64,000 bases of DNA from Chloroflexota bacterium (GTDB lineage: Bacteria; Chloroflexota; Limnocylindria; Limnocylindrales; CSP1-4), in NCBI GenBank assembly GCA_016191345.1, contig JACPOU010000029.1, positions 62,001-126,000 on the forward strand, read 5' to 3'. How positions within the stretch are numbered: position 1 is the stretch's first letter; each line of letters opens with the position of its first letter. Of the stretch, positions 24,368-37,386 are shown in pieces. The notes below the pieces were generated by a model. It did not search any database, was not told where the DNA came from, and worked only from the letters and a program-made list of their open reading frames with translations. Position numbers and translations under genes: made by a program.

Positions 24368-25108
24368 CGGCGCGGGAAGTCCTCCTTGGCCTGGTGGGCG
24401 GGCTGCAGGGACCCGGCTCGGGTGGCCGTCGTGGCGTCGCTCGCGGGCTCGCCTGCGCCGGCAAGGCCAGCCCCCGCCGCGGAGCGTGCGGCGGCGGCAG
24501 CGCGGCGGCGGCGCGACCTTGACCGGTTCCGTGCCGTTCGGGCCGGATCGGCGGCGCGGGACGCGGGAGCCCAGACCGCGCCCGCCTGGCTCGCGTCGCC
24601 CGGATCCACGGCCGGCCCGGGGTCGAGCGCCGGCCCCGAGCGTCCCGGAGAGGGAGTCGGCGAGCGCGAGGCGCCCGTACTTCAGCATGATCGCCCGGAA
24701 GTCACGGGCATAGAAGAGCTTGATCCGGAGGTCCGGGTAGAGCTCGCGGAGGCGCCGGAGCTTGCGGTTCTTCTTCCGGACCAGTCGCTGCTTGAGCGTG
24801 GTCAGCTCGAGGTAGAGATCCATGTCGGGCAGGTAGAAGTCCGGCGAAAAACTCTCGACGACGTCGCCGTCGAGGTTCCAGAGGATCGGGAACGTCCGCG
24901 GCTCGTAGTCCCAGCGGACGCCGTAGAAGTCGAGGATGCGGGCCATCTCCGCCTCGCTGCCATGGGCGAAGAGCGGCCACCGCCGGCCACTCGCGTCCGC
25001 CCCGCTGAGGGGCGCCACCGAGGGCCGGTCGACCCGAGGTTCCCTCGCGGAGACAGGAACGGGCGGCGGTGGATCCGCCCAGCCGGCGTGGGACGACGCC
25101 TCGGTCAT
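24364..25108 (-). CDS. Nuclease-like PD...ELT domain protein, probably frameshifted in its tail
   Basis: From ATG 25108 the first 145 residues look real: a helix at SEAEMARILDFYGVRW, then FSPDFYLPDMDLYLELTTLKQR (Pro89-Asp90, Glu101), a basic helix and DLRIKLFYARDF. The PD...E-x-T pattern is like a PD-(D/E)XK fold with Thr in place of Lys. Beyond about 24660 the same frame becomes Arg-rich and runs into hpt without a stop. Another frame there reads plausible Ala-rich protein ending QPAHQAKEDFPRR with a TGA at 24366-24364 that overlaps the hpt ATG. I therefore propose a one-base frameshift between about 24660 and 24610. It is coupled to 25105-25464 by ATGA. Confidence 0.5.
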
Positions 25109-25464
25109 CCGGCGCGGCCTCGGCGCTCGGCCGGGCCTGTCCGGCGTGTTCGGCCGAGGAGCCCGACGAGGTCCCCGTTCCAGCGTTCGAGGAGCCCGTG
25201 CATGTCGAGGACGTCATCCGCGGAGACCGGGGGCCCGTCCCCGCGCCGCGCGGCCTCGGCGGCCTCGGGGCCTGCGGGATGGCCGGAGTCAGGGTCCTGG
25301 ATGAAGCCCAGCGCCGTGCTGCGGCACGCGGTGCACTCGATCTGCAGGAAGAGGAGGTCGTCCCGCCGGGCGAGGATCCGGATCCGCTCGGCGGGGACGC
25401 GCTCCTCGCAGACGGTGCAATCGAGGCCGTCCTGAAGTGCGCGCAGGTGATCCTGGGGACCCAT
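25105..25464 (-). CDS. Small zinc-ribbon-like protein
   Basis: A 119-residue protein. Two CxxC knuckles (DCTVCEERVP and ECTACRST), separated by about 26 residues that include LLFLQIE, form a probable zinc ribbon. The C-terminal half is helical and Arg-rich at the end. The function is unknown. ATG 25464 has no Shine-Dalgarno, but GGTACACT ends 8 bases upstream, again a leaderless layout. It heads the minus-strand operon with the nuclease-like gene, hpt and the membrane protein. Confidence 0.7.
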   Translation of the reverse strand: MGPQDHLRALQDGLDCTVCEERVPAERIRILARRDDLLFLQIECTACRSTALGFIQDPDSGHPAGPEAAEAARRGDGPPVSADDVLDMHGLLERWNGDLVGLLGRTRRTGPAERRGRAG

Positions 25465-25472
25465 CCACGCGG

Positions 25473-25478
25473 AGTGTA
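25473..25478 (-). promoter_or_regulatory. -10 element TACACT of a leaderless start
   Basis: On the minus strand GGTACACT ends 8 bases before ATG 25464. No ribosome binding site is visible. It would drive the zinc-ribbon-to-hpt operon. Confidence 0.5.
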
Positions 25479-25513
25479 CCGCTCATGGCCCGATCCGGGG
25501 CGCCTTGCCTGCG

Positions 25514-25530
25514 ATACCCCCAGGGGGTAT
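25514..25530. promoter_or_regulatory. CsoR operator (ATACCCCC-A-GGGGGTAT)
   Basis: A perfect 8-bp inverted repeat with a one-base centre, 54 bases upstream of the csoR ATG. G/C runs flanked by AT bases in this symmetry are the known recognition pattern of CsoR-family repressors. It sits in the divergent gap, so it could also influence the minus-strand gene at 25464. Confidence 0.8.
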
Positions 25531-25584
25531 GATCGGATCGCTCGACCCGGCGACGGGCGACGTTCACTGGAGCACCCGACCACG

Positions 25585-25935
25585 ATGCCCACCACGCAGG
25601 ATCCTGCCCATCTCCACTCGGCGGACGAGACGTTCCGCCACTCCTATTCGAAGGACAAGGCCCAGCTCGTCCGGCGCCTTGCCCGGATCGAGGGACAGGT
25701 CCGGGGCATCGCCCGGATGATCGAGCGCGAGGAGTATTGCGTGGACATCCTCCAGCAGACGGCCGCGCTCCGGGCCGCCGTCGACTCGCTCGCCATCCTC
25801 GTCCTCGAGGACCACGTCCAGGGCTGCGTCCGCACGGCGGCCGAGCACGGCGACGCGGATCGCTACGTCGACGAGGTCGTGGACGTTGTCCGGCGGACCC
25901 TCGGACGGCCCGTCCGGGGGACCGGGCGAGGCTGA
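25585..25935 (+). CDS. csoR: Copper-sensing transcriptional repressor CsoR
   Basis: A 116-residue all-helical repressor. The Cu(I) ligands are Cys52 (EEYCVDILQQ), His77 (LEDHVQG) and Cys81, with exactly the CsoR spacing. The DNA-binding face has RRLARIEGQVRGIARMI. The first 20 residues form a His-containing lead. The start is ATG 25585. The operator at 25514-25530 indicates autoregulation with release by Cu(I). No copper ATPase is adjacent; the Csp-like gene at 2247 is the nearest copper-related gene in view. Confidence 0.93.
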   Translation: MPTTQDPAHLHSADETFRHSYSKDKAQLVRRLARIEGQVRGIARMIEREEYCVDILQQTAALRAAVDSLAILVLEDHVQGCVRTAAEHGDADRYVDEVVDVVRRTLGRPVRGTGRG

Positions 25936-27027: not shown

Positions 27028-27750
27028 ATGCGGATCGCGGTCCTGTCCGACATTCACGCCAACCTCAGCGCGCTCGACGCGGTCCTGGCGGCGGCCGGCG
27101 CGGTCGACGCCGTGTGGCAGCTCGGCGACATCGTCGGCTACGGCCCGGATCCGGACGGCGTCGTCGACCGTCTCCGGTCGATCGGGGCGCGGGGCGTGAA
27201 GGGCAATCACGACGCGGCCGCCGTCGGCGGCCTCGAGATCGAGTGGTTCAACGCCGACGCCCGTGGAGCCATGGAATGGACGCGCTCGGCGATCGCCCCG
27301 GGGACCGTCGCCTGGCTCACGGCCCTGCCCGAGGTCGCGGTGGAGGATGAGGCCACGCTCGTCCATGGCAGCCCGCGCGAGCCGATCTGGGAATACGTGA
27401 CGTCGGTCCCGGTTGCCCGCGCCAACCTCGGTCTCCTGCAGACCCGGATCGGGCTCAACGGCCACACCCACCTGCCCGTGGCCTTCGTCGAGGAGGACGG
27501 CCGGATCGAGGTCGTGGCTCCCGGTGACGGGTCGGTGCTGGAGCTGCGCGGCCGCCGCGCACTCGTCAATCCGGGGAGTGTCGGCCAACCCCGCGACGGC
27601 GATCCCCGGAGCGCCTACCTCATCCTCGACACCGACGCGGACACCGTCGCCTGGCACCGGGTCGCCTACGACATCGAGGCCGTCCAGGCGGACATGCGCG
27701 CTGCGGGCCTCCCGGCCTCCCTGATCGCCCGTCTCGCCGTCGGCCTGTGA
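27028..27750 (+). CDS. Metallophosphoesterase (YfcE/MJ0936-type phosphodiesterase)
   Basis: A 240-residue calcineurin-like phosphoesterase. The metal site motifs are in order: AVLSDIHANL (Asp8, His10), WQLGDIVGYG, VKGNHDAA, LVHGSPRE and LNGHTHLP. Family members hydrolyse phosphodiesters in small molecules; cyclic nucleotides are possible but unproven. Its stop overlaps the GTG of the first KimA-like transporter, which makes a nucleotide-signal link attractive because KimA-type proteins are c-di-AMP controlled in Firmicutes. That link is inference. Confidence 0.88.
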   Translation: MRIAVLSDIHANLSALDAVLAAAGAVDAVWQLGDIVGYGPDPDGVVDRLRSIGARGVKGNHDAAAVGGLEIEWFNADARGAMEWTRSAIAPGTVAWLTALPEVAVEDEATLVHGSPREPIWEYVTSVPVARANLGLLQTRIGLNGHTHLPVAFVEEDGRIEVVAPGDGSVLELRGRRALVNPGSVGQPRDGDPRSAYLILDTDADTVAWHRVAYDIEAVQADMRAAGLPASLIARLAVGL

Positions 27751-29756
27751 TCGGCGGTCGCCAGCCCATCCGGGGCCGGAAGCTCGGCGATCGTCGCCTC
27801 CGCGTCGAGCGCCCGCATGCCGCCTACTTCCGCTGGAGCGGCAAGGGCGTCATGAAGGCCAAGGAATCGGCGAGCGTCCCGACCACGGGTCTCGGCCGCG
27901 CCCTGGCCTCCGTGCGCTGGTTCTTCCTCGGCCGGCCGCTGGCCTCCGACGAGGAGATCGGCGAGCGGCTCTCGAAGAAGAAGGCCCTCGCGATCTTCAG
28001 CTCCGATGCGATCTCGAGCTCGGCCTATGCGACCGAGGAGATCCTCCGCGTCCTCATCCTCGGCGGCGTGGCCGCCCTCGCGCTGGGCCTCGAGGTCTCG
28101 ATCGCGATCGCGGTCCTGCTCATCGCGGTCGCGATCAGCTACCGCCAGGTCTGCCTCGCCTACCCGACCGGCGGCGGGTCCTACTCCGTGTCCAAGAAGA
28201 ACTTCGGCCGGAACGTCTCGCTGATCGCGGCTTCCGCGCTGCTGATCGACTACGTCATGACCGTCGCGGTCTCGACGACCTCGGCCGTGGAGCAGATCAC
28301 CTCCGCGGTCCCGGAGCTCCTCGACCAGCGCGTCATCATCGGCGTGCTCGCGATCGGGCTCATCACGATCGGCAATCTGCGCGGCCTCCGGGAGGCCGGC
28401 AACATCTTCGCCATCCCGACGTATCTGTTCGTCGGATCGGCGCTGCTCATGATCGCCATCGGGACGTTCAGGATCGTCGTTCTCGGGGAGCGAGGCGATT
28501 TCTCCGCCGGGATCGCCGAGCAGGCCGGCAGGCTGCCCGAGCAGGTCGGGATCCTGCTCCTCCTGCGGGCGTTCGCGGCCGGCGCCGTGGCCCTCACGGG
28601 GACGGAGGCGATCGCGACAGGCGTCCCGGCGTTCCAGCCGCCGGAGGCGAAGAATGCGGCGACGACCCTCGCTGCCATGGCCGGGCTCCTCGGCGTGCTC
28701 TTCATCGGGATCACCTTCCTCGCCGTGAACCTCGGGATCACCAACCTGGAGTTCCCGGAGAAGCAGACCGTCATCAGCCAGGGTGCCCGCCGCATCTACG
28801 GCGACAGCACGATTCCGTTCTTCCTGTTCCAGTCGTTCACGGCCCTGCTCCTCTTCCTGGCCGCGAACACGAGCTTCAATGCCTTTCCGCGGCTCCTCGC
28901 GATCCTTGCCGGCGATGCCCACATGCCGCGCCAGTTCGGCCTGCGAGGGGATCGGCTCGCCTTCTCCTACGGGATCGTCGTCCTTGCCGCGGTCGCGGCC
29001 AGCCTGGTGGTCCTGTTCAACGGCGAGACGCACCTGCTCATCCCGCTCTACGCCGTCGGCGTCTTCATCGACTTCACGATCAGCCAGGCGGGGATGATCC
29101 GGCACTGGCTGCGGGAGCGGCCGCCGGGCTGGCAGCGCCGCCTCGCGATCAACGCCTTCGGCTGCACGCTGACCGCGATCGTTGCGGTCGTCGTGACGGC
29201 GGCCAAGGCGCCGGCGTCGCTGATCGTCATCGTCCTCATCCCCCTCCTCGTTCTCCTGATGCTCTTCATCCGCCGCCAATACGACAGCCAGGCGGAGGAG
29301 CTGAGCGTCCGCGAGGACATCGTGTTTGCCGGCCCCCACCGCGAGCAGCGCGCGGTCGTCCCGGTCAACGGCATCAACCGGGCCGTGGTCCAGGCGGTGA
29401 CCTTCGCCCGGACGGTCGCGGCGGACGTGCGTGCCGTCTACGTCACGGAGGATGCCGCCGAGGCAGAGGCGATGCGCCGGCGCTGGGAGCGCCAGCTCCC
29501 GGGCGTGCCGCTCGTCATCGTCGAGTCGCCGTACCGGGCGATCGTCGAGCCGCTCATCGCCTATCTGGACGTGCTCGACGAGACATGGCCGCCGGACCGG
29601 GAGGCACCGATCACGATCGTCGTCCTGCCCGAATACGTCGCGAAGCGCTGGTGGGACCGGGTGCTGTATAACCAGACGGCGAAACGACTGAAGGCCGCGA
29701 TCGTGGGACGTGAGCACACTGTCATCGCCGACGTCCCGTTCCGTCGCGGCCACTGA
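27747..29756 (+). CDS. APC-superfamily transporter, KimA-like (potassium uptake candidate), copy 1
   Basis: A 669-residue protein with about 12 transmembrane segments and a C-terminal cytoplasmic domain. The start of the membrane part, KKALAIFSSDAISSSAYATE, closely resembles KimA/YdaO, a proton-coupled potassium importer. GSYSVSKKNFG and ANTSFNAFPRLLAILAGD are further family blocks. The soluble tail (VVPVNGINRAVVQAVTFART, PLVIVESPYRAIVEPLIAYL) is universal-stress-protein-like, as in KimA. Start GTG 27747 overlaps the phosphodiesterase stop. The neighbours (a paralogue, Usp and two TrkA/RCK proteins) support potassium. Amino acid transport remains possible. Confidence 0.8.
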   Translation: MIGGRQPIRGRKLGDRRLRVERPHAAYFRWSGKGVMKAKESASVPTTGLGRALASVRWFFLGRPLASDEEIGERLSKKKALAIFSSDAISSSAYATEEILRVLILGGVAALALGLEVSIAIAVLLIAVAISYRQVCLAYPTGGGSYSVSKKNFGRNVSLIAASALLIDYVMTVAVSTTSAVEQITSAVPELLDQRVIIGVLAIGLITIGNLRGLREAGNIFAIPTYLFVGSALLMIAIGTFRIVVLGERGDFSAGIAEQAGRLPEQVGILLLLRAFAAGAVALTGTEAIATGVPAFQPPEAKNAATTLAAMAGLLGVLFIGITFLAVNLGITNLEFPEKQTVISQGARRIYGDSTIPFFLFQSFTALLLFLAANTSFNAFPRLLAILAGDAHMPRQFGLRGDRLAFSYGIVVLAAVAASLVVLFNGETHLLIPLYAVGVFIDFTISQAGMIRHWLRERPPGWQRRLAINAFGCTLTAIVAVVVTAAKAPASLIVIVLIPLLVLLMLFIRRQYDSQAEELSVREDIVFAGPHREQRAVVPVNGINRAVVQAVTFARTVAADVRAVYVTEDAAEAEAMRRRWERQLPGVPLVIVESPYRAIVEPLIAYLDVLDETWPPDREAPITIVVLPEYVAKRWWDRVLYNQTAKRLKAAIVGREHTVIADVPFRRGH

Positions 29757-29802
29757 CCGCCGGACCGGACCCCGGGTGCCGCCCCGGCGCGGCAGGAGAT
29801 GC

Positions 29803-31848
29803 ATGATCGGAGGGCGGCGACCGCTCAAGGGTCGCAAGCTGGCGGACCGGCGCGTTCGCGTCGAGCGACCGCACTCGGCGTACTTCCGGTACACCGGTCC
29901 AGGGCAGCTGGTCGCCAAGGCCGCCGCGAGCGTCCCGACGACGCCCAGCGGGCGCCTCCTCGCCCGAATCCGCGCGGCGCTCTTCGGGCGACCGCTCGCC
30001 TCCGAGGAGGAGACCGGCGAGCGCCTTCCGAAGAAGAAGGCCCTCGCGATCTTCTCGTCAGACGCGATCTCGAGCTCTGCCTACGCCACCGAGGAGATCC
30101 TGCGGGTCCTCGTCCTCGCCGGCGCCGGCGCGATTCTCGTCTCGATCGAGATCGCGGTCGCGATCAGCGTGCTCCTCGCCGTCGTCGCGCTCTCCTACCG
30201 GCAGATCTGCCGCGCCTACCCCAACGGTGGCGGCGCCTATGCCGTGGCCAAGGAGAACATCGGCTCGATCGCCTCGCTCGTGGCGGCTGCCGCGCTCCTC
30301 ATCGACTACGTCATGACGGTCGCCGTCTCGACTGCCTCCGCGATCGCCCAGACCTACTCCGTCATCCCGGCGCTGTACGACGTGCGCGTCGAGATCGCGA
30401 TCGTCGCCATCGCCCTGATCACGATCGCGAACCTCCGCGGCCTCCGGGAATCCGGGAACATCTTCGCGATCCCGACGTACCTCTTCCTGGGCCTCGCCCT
30501 GCTCATGGTCGGGCTGGGCGTGGTGCGCATCGCCACGGGTGGCGCGACGGACCTCGCCCAGCCCGAGGCCGTGCCACTCGGGACCGAAGGGATCGGGCTG
30601 TTCCTGCTCCTCAGGGCCTTCGCGTCAGGCTCGGTTGCCCTGACAGGCACGGAGGCGATCGCGAACGGCGTACCGGCCTTCAAGCCGCCCGAATCGAGGA
30701 ACGCCTCGAACACCCTCGTCGCGATGGCCGTCCTTCTGGCGGTCCTGTTCGTCGGCATCACGGTGGTCGCCGACGGCTTCGGGATCCTGCCGACCGAGGA
30801 GGGTGGCCAGACGGTCGTGGCCGTCGTGGCGTCCGTCGTGTTCGGGGCCGGATCGCCGCTGTTCTACGCCTTCCAGGCCTCGACCGCGCTGATCCTGTTC
30901 CTGGCCGCGAACACGAGCTTCAACGCCTTCCCGCGGCTCGCCGCCCTCCTCGCCGAGGACGGCTACATGCCTCGCCAGTTCAGCTTCCGCGGCGACCGCC
31001 TCGCCTTCTCGTGGGGGATCGTCCTGCTCGCCGCGATCGCCGCCATCCTCATCGCCGTGTTCGGCGGCGACACCAATGCGCTCATCCCGCTCTACTCCGT
31101 CGGCGTCTTCGTGACGTTCACGCTCTCGCAGGCGGGGATGGTCCGCCACTGGGCGCGCGCGAAGGGCCCCGGCTGGACCTGGCGAGCCACGATCAACGCG
31201 GTCGGCGGGATCCTGACCTTCGTCGTCCTCATCGTGGTCGCCGGGGTGAAGTTCACCGACGGCGCGTACCTGGTCGTCATCCTCGTCCCGACTCTCGTCG
31301 CGGTGATGCTGTTCATCCGGCGGCAGTACGCGCGGAGCGCGATCCAGCTCGCGATCCGGGATGACTACGTCGCGACGCCGCCGATCCGGGACGAGCGTGT
31401 CGTCGTCCCCGTCCCGACCCTCAATCGCGCGGTCGTCCAGGCCGTCAATGTCGCGCGGTCCATCGCCGCCGACGTCCGGGCGGTCTTCATTTCCGAGGTG
31501 CCGGAGGCCGCCGAGGCGATGCGCGAGCGATGGGAGCGGCAGGTCCCGGGCGTGCCGCTCGTGCTCATCGGCTCGCCGTACCGCGCCCTGGCCGGGCCGC
31601 TCATCGCCTACCTCGACGTCCTGGATTCGGCGTGGCCCACCGATCGCCCGGAGCCCATCACGTTCGTCGTCATCCCGGAGTACGTCGCCAAGAGCTGGTG
31701 GGAGCGGATCCTCTACAACCAGTCGTCGCGGCGGCTCCGGACGATGCTGCTCGGCCGGCCGCACACCGTCGTCGTCAACGTGCCCTACCGGCGCGACGAC
31801 CCGGAGGCATTCGAGACCGGCCGGGGCCCCGGCGCAGCGTCGAGCTGA
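29803..31848 (+). CDS. APC-superfamily transporter, KimA-like (potassium uptake candidate), copy 2
   Basis: A 681-residue paralogue of the preceding gene with the same order: a basic N-terminus (GGRRPLKGRKLADRRVRVER), KKALAIFSSDAISSSAYATE, about 12 membrane segments, and a Usp-like cytoplasmic tail (VVPVPTLNRAVVQAVNVARS). ATG 29803 has GGCAGGAG upstream; an in-frame extension to 29710 would overlap copy 1 and is rejected. The two copies are clearly a tandem duplication that has diverged throughout. The terminal GRGPGAASS is low complexity. Confidence 0.8.
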   Translation: MIGGRRPLKGRKLADRRVRVERPHSAYFRYTGPGQLVAKAAASVPTTPSGRLLARIRAALFGRPLASEEETGERLPKKKALAIFSSDAISSSAYATEEILRVLVLAGAGAILVSIEIAVAISVLLAVVALSYRQICRAYPNGGGAYAVAKENIGSIASLVAAAALLIDYVMTVAVSTASAIAQTYSVIPALYDVRVEIAIVAIALITIANLRGLRESGNIFAIPTYLFLGLALLMVGLGVVRIATGGATDLAQPEAVPLGTEGIGLFLLLRAFASGSVALTGTEAIANGVPAFKPPESRNASNTLVAMAVLLAVLFVGITVVADGFGILPTEEGGQTVVAVVASVVFGAGSPLFYAFQASTALILFLAANTSFNAFPRLAALLAEDGYMPRQFSFRGDRLAFSWGIVLLAAIAAILIAVFGGDTNALIPLYSVGVFVTFTLSQAGMVRHWARAKGPGWTWRATINAVGGILTFVVLIVVAGVKFTDGAYLVVILVPTLVAVMLFIRRQYARSAIQLAIRDDYVATPPIRDERVVVPVPTLNRAVVQAVNVARSIAADVRAVFISEVPEAAEAMRERWERQVPGVPLVLIGSPYRALAGPLIAYLDVLDSAWPTDRPEPITFVVIPEYVAKSWWERILYNQSSRRLRTMLLGRPHTVVVNVPYRRDDPEAFETGRGPGAASS

Positions 31849-31963
31849 GCGGCCCTCGATCGCTCGCCGGGCCCGGTGGTATCGTGACCGGCGCGATGGC
31901 CCCGCTCGGGGCCCGGATCGAACGGGACCCGCCGTCCCGACCTTCGAGGCGCCCGACCACCTG

Positions 31964-32422
31964 GTGTCCGACACCCACGTCCCCATTTTCCGGCGCGCCC
32001 TCGTCGCGCTGGCCGGGGGACCCGGCGACGAGCGCATCGTCCGCCTCCTCACCGAACTCGCGAAGCCGGCTCACGCCGAGCTGATCGCCGTCCACGTCGT
32101 CGAAGTCGGCTGGGAACAGCCCCTCGACGCCGACGTGGCCGGCCGGTCGGAGATCGTGCAGCAGATTCTCGATGCCGCCGAATCGGTGGCCGAGCAGGCG
32201 AAGATGCGCCTGGATCCGGTCCTGCTCCAGGCTCGCGACGTGGGTGCGGCGCTCGTCGACGAGGCCACGGAGCGCGGGGTCGACCTCCTCGTGCTCGGTC
32301 TGCCCTACCGGATGCGGTTCGGCGGCGATTTCGCGATGGGCCGGACGATCCCCTACGTCCTCAAGAACGCGCCGTGCACCGTCTGGGTGGTGCGCGAGCC
32401 CATGGCCGAGGAACAATCGTGA
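31964..32422 (+). CDS. Universal stress protein (UspA family)
   Basis: About 152 residues: FRRALVALAGGPGDERIVRLLTELAK (first strand and helix), ELIAVHVVEV, and VDLLVLGLPYRMRFGGDFAMGRTIPYVLKNAPCTVWVVRE. The last block keeps the GxxxxxGxTxxYVL(K)xAPCxVxVVR layout, although the ATP loop is altered (FGGDFAMGRT). GTG 31964 is the best in-frame start, without a clear Shine-Dalgarno, so the N-terminus is uncertain. The stop overlaps the TrkA-like gene (GTGA). Usp proteins often bind nucleotide and regulate transporters. Confidence 0.8.
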   Translation: MSDTHVPIFRRALVALAGGPGDERIVRLLTELAKPAHAELIAVHVVEVGWEQPLDADVAGRSEIVQQILDAAESVAEQAKMRLDPVLLQARDVGAALVDEATERGVDLLVLGLPYRMRFGGDFAMGRTIPYVLKNAPCTVWVVREPMAEEQS

Positions 32423-32931
32423 AGATCGTGATCGTGGGCGCCGGCCGGGTCGGTGCCGTGCTCGCCGAGGCGTACGACGCCGCGGGGCACGAGGTCGTCA
32501 TCCTGGACCTCTCCACCCGTGCCTTCGACCGCCTGCCGACGGAGTTCCGCGGCAGCGCCGTCCGCGGCGACGGGACGGACGAGGACACGCTCCGGCGGGC
32601 CGGGGCCGCCGACGCGGATGCGTTCGTGGCCCTGACGGAGGGCGACAACCGGAACGTCATGGCCGCCCAGGTCGCCACCGAGAAGCTCGGCATCGGGAAG
32701 GTGATCGCCAAGATCAACGATCCGGTCCGCGCCGCGGCCTACGCCGACCTCGGCATCGCGACGCTCTGCCGGACGACGCTCCAGGCCGACGCCGTGAGTG
32801 CCTACCTCGGCTTTGCCCCGCTCGGCGTCCCGAGCGTCATCGCGCCCGCGAGGCCGCATCACAACGGCTCCGGCGCCCATGCACCCGACGCCGAGGCGGC
32901 GTCCGCCGGCCCGACCGGCCAGGAGGGCTGA
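32419..32931 (+). CDS. TrkA-N (RCK) domain protein, potassium channel/transporter regulator
   Basis: A 170-residue Rossmann RCK_N domain: KIVIVGAGRVGAVLAEAY, then VVILDLSTRAFDRL, DGTDEDTLRRAGAADADAFVALT and IGKVIAKINDPVRAAAY. The C-terminal 35 residues are disordered, and no TrkA-C domain is present. It should bind NAD(H) or a nucleotide and regulate K+ uptake. GTG 32419 overlaps the Usp stop. It is followed after one base by a full-length TrkA paralogue, an arrangement like CeoB/CeoC. Confidence 0.88.
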   Translation: MKIVIVGAGRVGAVLAEAYDAAGHEVVILDLSTRAFDRLPTEFRGSAVRGDGTDEDTLRRAGAADADAFVALTEGDNRNVMAAQVATEKLGIGKVIAKINDPVRAAAYADLGIATLCRTTLQADAVSAYLGFAPLGVPSVIAPARPHHNGSGAHAPDAEAASAGPTGQEG

Positions 32932-32932
32932 C

Positions 32933-33616
32933 ATGTTCGTGCTCGTCGTCGGCGGCGGCAAGGTCGGCTACTACCTTGCCAAGGAACTTATCGAGAGCGG
33001 CCACGAGGTCGTGCTCATGGAGCAGGACCGCGCCCGGGCGGACCAGATCGCCGACGAGATCGGCTCGATCGTCGTTGCCCACGACGGCTGTGAGGGCAAG
33101 TACCTGGGCGAGGCCGGGTGTGCCCGGGCGGACATCGTGGCCGCGGTCACCGGCGACGACGAGGACAACCTCGTGATCTGCCAGATGGCCAAGCATCACT
33201 TCGACGTCCGGCGGACGATCGCCCGCGTCAACAACCCGAAGAACGAGGCGCTCTTCCGCCACCTGGGCGTCGACGAGATCATCAGCCCGACCCGGATGAT
33301 CCTCGGCTCCATCGAGCAGGACATCCCGGTCCACGAGCTGCTCCACCTCGCCGCACTCGGGGAGGGTGAGCTGGAGATCATCGAGGCGCACCTCCAGGAG
33401 GGATCGCCGGCGATCGGCAAGACGTCCGGCGAGCTCTCCATGCCGGCGGGCTGCTCCCTCTTCGCCGTCATCCGCGGCGGTGTCGCGACCCCGCTCCGGG
33501 CCGACATGACGCTCCGGGTTGGCGACAAGGTCATCGCGATCGGCCCGACCGAGTGCGAGGCACTGCTCCACGAGCAGCTCATCGGCGAGGATGTCGCCAC
33601 CGCGCCAGGAATCTAG
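32933..33616 (+). CDS. TrkA-type RCK protein with N and C domains
   Basis: A 227-residue protein. The RCK_N domain (FVLVVGGGKVGYYLAKELIE, HEVVLMEQDRARADQI, ADIVAAVTGDDEDNLVICQMA, IARVNNPKNEALFRHLGVDEI) is followed by a TrkA-C domain (from about residue 140: GELEIIEAHLQEGSPAIGKT, LRVGDKVIAIGPTECEALL). It is expected to form a gating ring on a K+ transporter, possibly with the N-only paralogue. It is the last gene of the potassium module. Confidence 0.9.
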   Translation: MFVLVVGGGKVGYYLAKELIESGHEVVLMEQDRARADQIADEIGSIVVAHDGCEGKYLGEAGCARADIVAAVTGDDEDNLVICQMAKHHFDVRRTIARVNNPKNEALFRHLGVDEIISPTRMILGSIEQDIPVHELLHLAALGEGELEIIEAHLQEGSPAIGKTSGELSMPAGCSLFAVIRGGVATPLRADMTLRVGDKVIAIGPTECEALLHEQLIGEDVATAPGI

Positions 33617-33944: not shown

Positions 33945-34442
33945 ATGACGATCGTGCGCCGGCCCTCGCCGTTCGGCGAGCTCATGTCACTCCGCCAGGC
34001 GATGGATCGCCTCTTCGACGACGACTTCGTCCGGCCGCTCCGCTCCGGCCTGCAGGACGGGCCCTCGCTCCCGCTCGACGTCACCACGAGTGCCGACGAG
34101 CTGCTGATCGAGGCCGCGCTGCCGGGCATCAAGCCGGAGGACGTCGATATCACGATCGAGAACGGGACCCTGACGGTCACCGGCAAGACCGCCGACGAGC
34201 GGCGCGCCGAGGACGCCAGCTACCTCGTCCAGGAGATCCGCCGCGGCACGTTCAGCCGCTCCGTGACGCTCCCGAACGGGCTGGAGCCGGACAAGGCGAC
34301 CGCCACCTTCGAGCACGGCGTCCTGACGCTGCGGATCCCGAAGGCGGAGCAGGTCAAGCCGCGCCAGATCCGGATCTCGCCCGTGACCGATGGCCAGCCC
34401 CGGACCTCGGCCGCCGTTCCGGCCGCGACGGCGCGAAGCTGA
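33945..34442 (+). CDS. Small heat shock protein Hsp20
   Basis: A 165-residue alpha-crystallin-type chaperone. The N-terminal arm (FGELMSLRQAMDRLFDDDF) is followed by the crystallin domain (about residues 44-135: LPLDVTTSADELLIEAALPG, GTLTVTGKTADER, and the AxxxxGVLTL signature as ATFEHGVLTLRIPKAE). An IRIS element follows near the C-terminus (RQIRISPV, the I-x-I motif). It holds unfolded proteins for the Lon/DnaJ/ClpB machinery encoded downstream. GGAGG (33931-33935) precedes ATG 33945. Confidence 0.95.
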   Translation: MTIVRRPSPFGELMSLRQAMDRLFDDDFVRPLRSGLQDGPSLPLDVTTSADELLIEAALPGIKPEDVDITIENGTLTVTGKTADERRAEDASYLVQEIRRGTFSRSVTLPNGLEPDKATATFEHGVLTLRIPKAEQVKPRQIRISPVTDGQPRTSAAVPAATARS

Positions 34443-34461
34443 GCGGGGAGGCGCAGGGCCC

Positions 34462-34848
34462 GTGCGCGTGACGATCCGGCGAGCCGACGCCCGGGACCCC
34501 GGGCGCCCGGTGTACGTCATCAGCGTGGCCGCCGACATCGTCAGCGTCCACCCGAGAACGCTCCGGATCTACGAAGACGCGGGCCTCATCTGCCCCGCCC
34601 GCACGCCGACCAACATCCGCCTCTATTCCGAGAACGACATCCGGCGGGTCATGTGGATCCGCCACCTCACCCAGAACCTTGGCGTGAACCTCGCCGGGGT
34701 CCGGATCCTCTTCGAGCTCGAGGAGCGCCTGGGGACCCGCATCCTCGAACGGCTCTACGACGAAGGGACGAAGGAAGCTGCCGCGACCGCTGACGCGGAG
34801 GCGGCAGCCGCCCGGCTCGAGCCGGAGCCCGAACCAACCCCCGCCTGA
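34462..34848 (+). CDS. hspR: MerR-family heat-shock repressor HspR
   Basis: A 128-residue protein with the HspR signature VYVISVAADIVSVHPRTLRIYEDAGLICPARTPTNIRLYSENDIRRV, then IRHLTQNLGVNLAGVRILFELEERL. The C-terminus is Glu/Pro-rich, not metal-binding, as expected for HspR. HspR normally represses chaperone operons with DnaK as corepressor. GTG 34462 is chosen from GGGGAGG at 34445-34451. It lies between hsp20 and lon, so autoregulation through the inverted repeat at 33833-33849 is likely. Confidence 0.93.
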   Translation: MRVTIRRADARDPGRPVYVISVAADIVSVHPRTLRIYEDAGLICPARTPTNIRLYSENDIRRVMWIRHLTQNLGVNLAGVRILFELEERLGTRILERLYDEGTKEAAATADAEAAAARLEPEPEPTPA

Positions 34849-34926
34849 ACCACCGGGGCCGGCACCGCCGGCCCCGCTGTCCCCGCCGGCCAGCCCGGCA
34901 CGAACGAGAGAGAACAGGAGAACCCG

Positions 34927-37386
34927 ATGGCCAAGCGACCGTCCAACCCGGACGCCGAGCGGACCGAATCGATCAAGGATCTGCCGCTCGTCGCCCTCCG
35001 GGAGACGGTCATCTTTCCCGAGATGATCGTTCCCCTCCAGGTGGGCCGCGAGAAGAGCGTCGCCGCCCTCAATGCCGCCGTGGAATCCGGCGGCCCGATC
35101 GCGCTCGTCACGCAGCGCCAGGCGGACCTGGAGGACGTCACGGAGCCCTCCGAGCTCTACGAGGTGGGGACCCTGGCGAAGATCGCCCAGGTCGTCCAGC
35201 TCCAGGACGGCACGGTCCGGGCCATCGTCCAGGGCCAGGGCCGGATCAAGGTCCACGGCTTCAGCCAGGTCGGCCCGTACCTCCGCGCGAAGGTCGAGGA
35301 GCTCAAGGAGACGACGCCCGCGGACGTCGAGATCCAGGCCCTCATGCGCTCCGTCCAGAGCCAGGTGGAGCAGTACGTCCAGGCCGGCGCCCCGGTTCCG
35401 CCCGAGGCCGCCGTCGCGGCCAAGAACATCAGCGAGCCCGGGCTCCTCGCGGACATGACGGCCTACAGCCCGGACATGACGACCGAGCAGCGCCAGGAGC
35501 TCCTCGAGACGATCGACATCGTCGAGCGCCTCAAGCTCGTCTCGGCCTTCCTCGCCCGCCAGATCGAGATCCTCGAGCTGAAGGGCAAGATCCAGTCCGA
35601 GGTCAAGTCCGAGATGGACAAGACCCAGCGGGAGTACATCCTCCGCGAGCAGCTGAAGGCCATCCAGCGCGAGCTCGGCGAGGAGGACCCCCAGCAGGCC
35701 GAGGTCAACGAGCTCCGCGACAAGGTCGAGGCCTCCGGGATGCCGGACGAGGTCAAGGCCCGGGCGATCAAGGAGATCGACCGGATGAGCCGGATCCCGT
35801 CCGCCTCGCCCGAGGTCGGTGTCATCCGGACGTACGTGGACTGGCTCGTGAGCCTGCCGTGGAACGTGACGACCGAGGACCGCTACGACATCAAGGAGGC
35901 CGCCAAGATCCTCGATGAGGACCATTACGGCCTGGAGAAGGTCAAGGAGCGGATCCTCGAGTACCTCGCGGTCCGCTCCCTCGCGGACACGATCCGCAGC
36001 CCGATCCTCGCGCTCATCGGGCCACCCGGCGTCGGCAAGACGTCGCTCGGCAAGAGCGTCGCCCGGGCGATGGGCCGGAAGTTCGTCCGGATGAGCCTCG
36101 GCGGCATCCACGACGAGGCGGAGATCCGCGGCCACCGGCGCACGTACATCGGCGCGCTTCCGGGGCGGATCATCCAGAACGTGAAGACGGCCGGCACCAG
36201 CAACCCCGTGTTCATGCTCGACGAGATCGACAAGATCGGGATGGACTTCCGGGGCGACCCGTCGTCCGCCCTCCTCGAGGTCCTTGACCCGGAGCAGAAC
36301 AACTCCTTCCAGGACAACTACCTGGAGGTGCCGTTCGACCTCAGCAAGGTCCTCTTCGTCGCCACCGGCAACCTCATGGACCCCATCCCCGCCGCCCTGC
36401 GCGACCGGATGGAGATCATCCAGCTGCCCGGCTACACCCAGCGCGAGAAGGTCGAGATCGGCAAGCGCTTCCTCGTCACCAAGCAGATGGAGAACCACGG
36501 CCTCAAGCCGAGGCACATCGAGATCACCGACGAGGCGATGGTCGAGCTCGTCCAGGCGTACACCCACGAGGCCGGCGTCCGGAACCTCGAGCGGGAGATC
36601 GCGAACGTCATGCGCAAGGTGGCGCGGTCGGTCGCCGAGGGCCGCAAGCGGAAGACGGTCGTCGACAGGAAGAAGCTGCTCGAGTACCTCGGCCCGCCGC
36701 GCTGGGAGTACGGCGAGCTGGAGCCCGAGGACCAGGTCGGCTCGGCGACGGGTCTCGTCGTGACCGAGGTCGGCGGCGACGTCGTCGCGGTCGAAGTCAC
36801 CCGGATGGAGGGCAAGGAAGACTTCATCCTCACCGGCCAGCTCGGCGAGGTCATGCGCGAATCCGCCCGGGCCGGCCTGTCCTGGATCCGGACGCACGCC
36901 GCGGAGCTCGGCATCACCCGCGAGATGTTCGAGAAGCAGACGCTCCACATCCATGTCCCGGCGGGCGGGATCCCGAAGGACGGCCCATCCGCCGGCGTCA
37001 CGATGGTGACGGCGATGGTCTCCGCCTTCACCGGCATCCCCGTCCGGAAGGACGTGGCCATGACGGGCGAGATCACCCTTCGGGGGCGCGTGCTCCCGAT
37101 CGGCGGCCTCAAGAGCAAGATCCTCGCCGCCCACCTCTCGGGGGCCAAGATCGTCATTCTCCCGAAGAAGAACGAGAAGGACCTCCGGGACATCCCCGAG
37201 GAGATCCGGAAGTCGATCAAGCTCGTCCTCGCCGAGAACATGGACCAGGTCCTCGAGGCGGCGCTCCGGCGCCGCCCGAAGGCCCTCGCCGTGGCGAAGT
37301 CCGAGCCCGGCTCGGGCGGGGCGCCGGATCCGGAGGCGATCCGGCGATCGACCTTCCCGACCGACCAGCCCGCGGTCGTCGTCTAG
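34927..37386 (+). CDS. lon: ATP-dependent protease Lon
   Basis: An 819-residue LonA. The N-terminal substrate domain ([19 protein letters not shown]) and coiled coil ([12 protein letters not shown] to [11 protein letters not shown]) come first. Walker A is GPPGVGKTS (about residue 364) and Walker [10 protein letters not shown]. The proteolytic dyad is Ser688 (PKDGPSAG) and Lys731 (GLKSKIL), at the normal 43-residue spacing. It degrades damaged proteins in the cytosol. GGAG precedes ATG 34927. Confidence 0.97.

Follow-up and report, generated by a model that had tools for sequence, protein, structure and literature searches.

Two described systems of bacterial K+ uptake lie closest to the gene cluster reported here, which occupies positions 27028-33616 on the + strand of a 64,000-nucleotide stretch (the window) of contig JACPOU010000029.1 from a Chloroflexota bacterium. 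KimA (YdaO) of Bacillus subtilis is reported to be a K+/H+ symporter (PMC6994465) that is inhibited by cyclic di-AMP (c-di-AMP), and the parts of the latter account considered here mention no RCK protein (PMC10284832). RCK rings, for their part, are known to regulate Trk/Ktr-type pores, a channel-like route of K+ uptake, and the partner of the Thermotoga maritima ring is given as the TrkH protein TM1089 (PMC4380455). The window cluster holds relatives of both: its six genes encode a metallophosphoesterase, two KimA-like carriers, a free Usp protein and two RCK proteins, an assignment made in the initial annotation and confirmed by Pfam and PDB matches. We consider it somewhat more likely than not that the KimA carriers import K+ and that the RCK pair, which is of TM1088 type, and Usp tune them. 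The parts are individually known; KimA with an RCK pair and Usp is a new combination, and among the matches listed from the openly licensed literature we found no paper that links such RCK proteins to KimA, the one paper naming both KimA and CeoB being unrelated.

The basis of this reading lies in sequence comparison, namely the family of the carriers and their K+ site, the type of the RCK pair, the lack of detectable TrkH, KdpA or Kup, and a conserved neighbourhood. Genome context suggests an action of the RCK pair on KimA.

Genome counts are out of 61, the source assembly (2.77 Mb, 64 contigs; completeness 91.5%, contamination 6.7%) and 60 relatives, with 25 of the 61 classed as good; f2 denotes a family of 19 small-genome relatives (0.8-1.2 Mb). 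A pair is two TrkA_N matches on one strand with starts less than 900 bp apart, and pair counts are made among listed TrkA_N matches of at least 75 bits and KimA matches outside f2, leaving aside weaker or unlisted matches and the KimA matches of f2. The nearest named relatives of the source genome are Chloroflexi bins (KimA 72% identical), and the named KimA loci are the best 80 of at least 592 candidates from a scan of genome contigs.

KimA-type carriers, their tails and c-di-AMP

Carrier A (27747-29756, 669 aa) and carrier B (29803-31848, 681 aa), each with a cytosolic tail, have B. subtilis KimA as their sole strong PDB match (phmmer vs 6s3k, E 1.5e-133 and 6.9e-144), with 39% and 44% identity respectively. 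Residues 55-666 of carrier A align with KimA 4-604, and residues 87-694 of carrier B, numbered from a start 31 residues longer, with KimA 5-604. The residues of KimA that coordinate K+ or bind c-di-AMP are used here as named in the parts of PMC10284832 considered. Asp36, Tyr43, Thr230 and Tyr377, which coordinate K+, are all present in both window copies; when 51 KimA-like proteins from the class are aligned with carriers A and B and B. subtilis KimA, Asp36, Tyr43 and Tyr377 are found in 53/53 and Thr230 in 52/53. Because both carriers match KimA and keep its four K+-coordinating residues, both likely transport K+, and the full-length homology and retained site support the earlier proposal of K+ uptake by KimA-type carriers.

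The two copies differ at Asn237 of KimA, which is kept in carrier B and is Thr in carrier A and its look-alikes. Since the N237A substitution is reported to abolish c-di-AMP inhibition of KimA and to raise its Km (PMC10284832), carrier A may by analogy be a form less sensitive to c-di-AMP.

At the N terminus both carriers have an extension of about 50 residues, basic and conserved (GRK.GDR.VRV.RP..YFR; window 27747-27900 and 29803-29960), which B. subtilis KimA lacks and which is shorter in f2. Its shortening in f2, where RCK is missing, would fit a docking piece for RCK proteins, but this role is not supported as a general rule, since the RCK-linked KimA matches of two named loci (L151 and L171) and of Nonomuraea begin after it.

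The initial annotation gave each carrier a Usp-like tail, a description that holds for the class of fold in a predicted structure and finds no convincing support at the level of sequence. Pfam finds no match in the tail, and profile comparison of the tail with the free Usp gave nothing convincing (HHalign probability 3%). An AlphaFold2 model of the carrier B tail (31342-31848; 33 sequences, predicted local distance difference test 89.9) has a Usp-class fold and putatively corresponds to the domain with which KimA binds c-di-AMP, matching the KimA cytosolic domain in Foldseek (8b70, E 2.6e-9) and in VIA (8b71, Z 18.7, 149 residues, 2.8 A). The VIA match to Usp 6hcd has Z 11.7 (115 residues, 2.7 A); other nucleotide-binding alpha/beta folds score close behind Usp and were not used.

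The c-di-AMP loop of KimA, His-Asn-Gln-Ser, reads Tyr-Asn-Gln-Ser in carrier B and Tyr-Asn-Gln-Thr in carrier A; the putative pocket keeps R337, N580, Q581 and S/T582; Trp592 of KimA is Gly in the window carriers. The source genome has one match to the c-di-AMP synthase (DAC). Outside f2, Gln581 is kept in 40 of 41 KimA copies of the class, all 41 from DAC-bearing genomes, and position 582 is Q, L or N in five of these. No DAC match was found in the 19 f2 genomes, and the tails of their KimA proteins read His-Asn-Gly-Asn in 12/12, with Gln581 replaced by Gly and the K+ site unchanged.

Among the named genomes the DAC search covered 50 of the 80 KimA genomes, with further TrkH and DAC checks in 17 genomes, and DAC was found in 36/50. 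The whole loop is intact in 27 of the 36 genomes with DAC and in six of the 14 without (p 0.047). A small residue stands at position 582 in 34/36 and 6/14 respectively (Fisher p 0.0002, with the cut chosen post hoc and the genomes related to one another), and six of the eight changed position-582 cases without DAC are Nitrospira-type and alike. The link of the loop and of position 582 to the presence of DAC in the named genomes is no more than suggestive on these comparisons. The K+-coordinating Asp36 is Asn in the KimA homologues of three Nitrospira-type loci (L137, L140 and L161), the first two from genomes with no DAC match, and the ion or the coupling of these homologues may be different.

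RCK pair, free Usp and genome context

The N-only RCK protein (32419-32931, GTG start) is of TM1088A type (TrkA_N E 1.5e-23; TM1088A in the PDB E 1.9e-20), and the full RCK protein (32933-33616, 227 aa, ATG start) is of TM1088B type (TrkA_N 8e-30 and TrkA_C 3e-9; TM1088B E 2.7e-32 over 218 residues). At the AMP site of TM1088A (residues from the parts of PMC4380455 considered) the N-only protein keeps the GxGxxG motif, Arg17, Asp37, Gly57 and Thr80, with Ala59 changed to Gly and Arg105 to Lys. The free Usp (31964-32422, 152 aa, GTG start; PF00582 E 3.5e-15 to 3.8e-16) has a domain score of 60.4 bits against a curated cut-off of 24. The usual ATP motif of Usp proteins is G-2x-G-9x-G-S/T; the consensus of 29 relatives has, by eye, a GLPYR.rfGgdfaiGRT loop instead, and other residues may bind ATP.

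TrkH/KtrB (PF02386) was not found in the source genome at its 91.5% completeness, the control search being positive in 11/14 named genomes, nor were KdpA or Kup. TrkH/KtrB is present in 5/61 genomes (1/25 good ones) and KdpA in 5/61, and the three above-cut-off Kup matches among the 61 all fall within KimA-like matches. Ion_trans_2 channels occur in 25/61, with one in the source genome, and KimA-like proteins in 56/61 and in all 25 good genomes, with three in the source genome. No match to TrkH, KdpA or Ion_trans_2 was found in 31 genomes, of which 27 have KimA and the other four are 54-82% complete.

Among the TrkA_N matches listed, the RCK pair is present in 40/61 genomes. No TrkH match turned up in 35 of these 40 genomes, which supports the view that a KimA-type carrier is served by the RCK proteins; 34 of the 35 have KimA, 12 genomes have the pair and no match to TrkH, KdpA or Ion_trans_2, and KimA is present in 12/12. 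Synteny in relatives is likewise borne out, with a KimA match ending 480-768 bp upstream of the first match of the pair on the same strand in 28/40 (among the matches listed), and with Usp between KimA and the pair in the relatives' loci read. In two further genomes (G033 and G034) the pair lies at or near a contig end and the phosphoesterase and KimA end another contig, the join in G034 being a candidate. G005, one of ten genomes without KimA beside the pair, has its long RCK gene split in two. All five TrkH genes adjoin an RCK gene of another kind (35-53 bits to the pair profiles), and their genomes also bear the pair, at another site. Of the 35 Ion_trans_2 matches listed, 13 are followed at once by a TrkA_N match of like direction, in most cases with equal open-frame length (for example G011:C64, G036:C2, G005:C18), so that an RCK comes with the channel itself; the channel of the source genome has none. 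A contig of G009 that lacks the RCK pair carries three clustered KimA-like genes (L092 5827-13510).

The site has lost the phosphoesterase, Usp, the two RCK genes and HSP20 in all 12 f2 loci read, where it runs RsmG-KimA-MerR-Lon. There is no strong TrkA_N match in the 19 f2 genomes, five having a weaker one at E 4e-5 to 9e-4. Because f2 is one clade these losses count once, as a single event, and genome streamlining alone could account for them. These small-genome relatives, with KimA and without RCK, Usp or a detectable c-di-AMP synthase, constitute a natural deletion experiment.

Outside the class, RCK genes were sought in the 80 named loci with class-trained profiles that could overlook distant RCK genes; some of the loci are short. 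An RCK gene lies beside KimA in 14/80, all Chloroflexota. Eight are close relatives of the window (L095-L098, L100-L102 and L118), and the others are L105, L107, L116, L151, L171 and L115, the last cut by a contig end; L147 has a weak RCK match on the opposite strand. TrkH was not found in five of these six other genomes, and the sixth has TrkH with its own RCK. The L105 genome, recorded as Candidatus Aquidulcis, measures 6.3 Mb and has KimA-Usp-RCK-RCK along with DAC, whereas the Aquidulcis frankliniae genome has 1.2 Mb; the discrepancy is probably one of naming. Within the limits of these profiles, no RCK gene was found beside KimA in the Nitrospirota, Rokubacteria, Paenibacillus and cyanobacterial loci among the best 80. 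In a single actinobacterial case, Nonomuraea gerenzanensis, KimA and an RCK pair are divergent neighbours, both RCK proteins have N+C length, and a TRAM/TrmA-like methyltransferase (by eye) lies beyond.

The genes of the window cluster had been described as overlapping at several points, which is so at two junctions and not at the remaining ones. The stop of the phosphoesterase overlaps the GTG start of carrier A (27747) by 4 bp, as does the stop of Usp the GTG start of the short RCK gene (32419). Carrier B starts at ATG 29803 with AGGAG ahead of it, the Usp start (GTG 31964) is the sole common start codon in its open frame past the end of carrier B, and the ATG of the long RCK gene (32933) is separated from the short RCK stop by 1 bp. 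Downstream, at 33945-37386, are genes for HSP20, a MerR-family regulator and Lon, a block common to many relatives' loci. Upstream, an open reading frame at 25069-25935 has a C-terminal half that resembles by eye a CsoR-type metal-responsive repressor, judged on its motif. An Rfam scan of the window gave no match, hence no ydaO-type riboswitch was found, and PADLOC gave one weak, irrelevant match. Promoter and terminator scans returned one site (0.3 by chance) and two sites (1.1 by chance) respectively and were not used.

Proposed working and alternatives

We propose that carriers A and B, as KimA-type members of the KUP family, would import K+, probably together with H+ like B. subtilis KimA, and that the locus is probably the main K+ uptake site where Trk/Ktr, Kdp and Kup are not found. 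The carrier tails are probably able to bind c-di-AMP, which at high K+ would slow uptake. The N-only and full RCK proteins would form a two-subunit ring of the TM1088A/B type that senses adenine nucleotides, and this ring and the free Usp, the latter as a further adapter or sensor, would add a second, energy- or stress-dependent control on the carriers. Because relatives keep KimA without RCK, the role of RCK would be modulatory for KimA and not structural.

Several observations weigh against this proposal. By the class-trained profiles most named KimA loci have no RCK neighbour, only 14 of the best 80 having one, and 16/19 f2 genomes have KimA without a strong TrkA_N match. RCK pairs are also found in other company, with TrkG in Acaryochloris and directly behind a cation-transporting P-type ATPase on plasmid p1 of Streptomyces fungicidicus (L180 5300-6612), and in 10/40 genomes (L043-L052) the order is phosphoesterase-Usp-RCK-RCK with no KimA between, KimA being elsewhere in nine of these and not found in one. 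The single Ion_trans_2 channel of the source genome is a possible other partner of the RCK proteins. As to c-di-AMP, His579 of the loop is Tyr in both window copies, the loop is altered in 9/36 named DAC-bearing genomes too, and the RCK pair occurs without a DAC match in G024 (66% complete) and G030 (93%), both among the 40, and in G063. Several Usp genes also lie near the plasmid TrkA pair of S. fungicidicus, and the P-type ATPase is another possible unusual RCK partner.

A rival reading is that the RCK pair and Usp instead regulate an unlinked ion transporter or channel (such as Ion_trans_2 or a cation/H+ antiporter) and merely neighbour KimA. The ten sites where Usp and both RCK genes stand together without KimA, the Ion_trans_2 gene of the source genome, and the RCK pairs that other bacteria have beside TrkG or a P-type ATPase all speak for such a target, which we nevertheless think rather unlikely: the 12 pair genomes with no TrkH, KdpA or Ion_trans_2 match all have KimA, 13 of the 35 listed channel matches have a TrkA_N gene of their own behind them (the source genome's channel being without one), and the adjacency of KimA and RCK recurs in Anaerolineales and Nonomuraea. 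It is distinctly improbable, in our view, that the cluster is a loose housekeeping neighbourhood running from rsmG to lon in which the K+ carriers and RCK/Usp are functionally unlinked. Adjacency alone does not prove a link, because the phosphoesterase persists off-site in f2 and HSP20, MerR and Lon adjoin the cluster; but Usp overlaps the first RCK gene by 4 bp, the second RCK gene begins after a gap of 1 bp, and KimA-RCK adjacency is seen without HSP20 or MerR matches in L105, L107, L116, L151 and L171, and in divergent form in Nonomuraea.

Two further alternatives concern the activities of single proteins. The metallophosphoesterase (27028-27750, 240 aa; YfcE/Metallophos_2 type; PF12850 E 7e-20, PDB 3rqz E 1.9e-67) had been proposed as a phosphodiesterase acting on c-di-AMP, and its hydrolysis of c-di-AMP could then release KimA and RCK from inhibition. 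It heads the cluster with a 4 bp overlap with carrier A, it is still beside the Usp-RCK unit where KimA is absent, and it seemed to be lost with DAC in f2. However, a homologue with 47-53% identity is present elsewhere in 14/19 f2 genomes (by whole-genome search), all without a DAC match, and therefore loss from the site does not tie the phosphoesterase to c-di-AMP; where one such locus was read, DedA-like and MMPL-like genes flank the homologue (families by eye). Known c-di-AMP phosphodiesterases (GdpP, DhhP and PgpH) have HD or DHH domains, and the window protein is YfcE-like, with Pfam matches to Metallophos and Metallophos_2 only and none to DHH-DHHA1 or HD. We therefore reject the c-di-AMP assignment as very improbable; the protein, retained in genomes where the synthase is missing, is probably a linked gene with some other function. 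Even less credible is that the carriers are amino acid transporters, as the name of their Pfam family has it: both match AA_permease_2 (E 5e-26 for A and 1e-32 for B), and NCBIfam 2A0306 matches carrier B far under its cut-off. We reject amino acid transport as extremely improbable because of the full-length KimA homology and the conserved K+ site; many of the 61 genomes also show no other K+ importer family, and KimA itself is reported as a K+/H+ symporter (PMC6994465).

Comparison with known systems

The carriers of the proposed KimA-RCK system share with B. subtilis KimA (PDB 6s3k, 8b70 and 8b71) homology over the membrane part and tail, the K+ site and the predicted fold of the tail. They differ in being 39-44% identical to it, in the N-terminal extension, in Tyr for His579 and Gly for Trp592, and in occurring as tandem copies with an RCK pair and Usp alongside. 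TeaD of Halomonas elongata (PDB 3hgm) also matches the fold of the KimA tail; it is a Usp likewise tied to a transporter, although of a different class, the TRAP transporter TeaABC as against KimA.

The RCK pair resembles the two-subunit TM1088A/TM1088B TrkA ring of T. maritima (PDB 3l4b), where N-only and N+C RCK proteins are also encoded side by side. The nucleotide-site residues of TM1088A are mostly kept in the N-only protein, with the changes at Arg105 and Ala59 given above. The partner of the T. maritima ring is TrkH, whereas TrkH was not found in the source genome.

The neighbourhood in Nonomuraea resembles the CeoBC system of Mycobacterium tuberculosis, in which the order Rv2690c-CeoB-CeoC is the same and Rv2690c is a candidate KimA homologue. 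We put forward tentatively, as a possibility somewhat short of an even chance, that a K+ symporter of KUP/APC fold is under the direct control of a two-subunit RCK ring. Such a symporter would add to the known kinds of RCK target, in Trk-less Chloroflexota and Actinomycetota, and Rv2690c would then be the missing membrane subunit of CeoBC. CeoB and CeoC, two TrkA proteins, are described as making up the M. tuberculosis 'Trk' system (PMC13163235), Rv2690c is reported to adjoin ceoB, and transposon insertions in either give enhanced survival in rifampicin (PMC12216072). The terms TrkH, TrkG and Rv2690 do not appear in three papers on CeoBC (PMC6375644, PMC12136442, PMC13163235), and Streptomyces venezuelae is reported to have two KimA-like proteins, with no TrkH found (PMC10117811). 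If RCK also steers KimA-type carriers, the control of K+ uptake in Trk-less bacteria, including that by mycobacterial CeoBC, becomes directly testable. Compared with the window locus, where a single strand carries the carriers, Usp and an N-only and a full RCK gene, the Nonomuraea KimA and RCK genes are divergent and not one operon, and both of its RCK proteins have N+C length.

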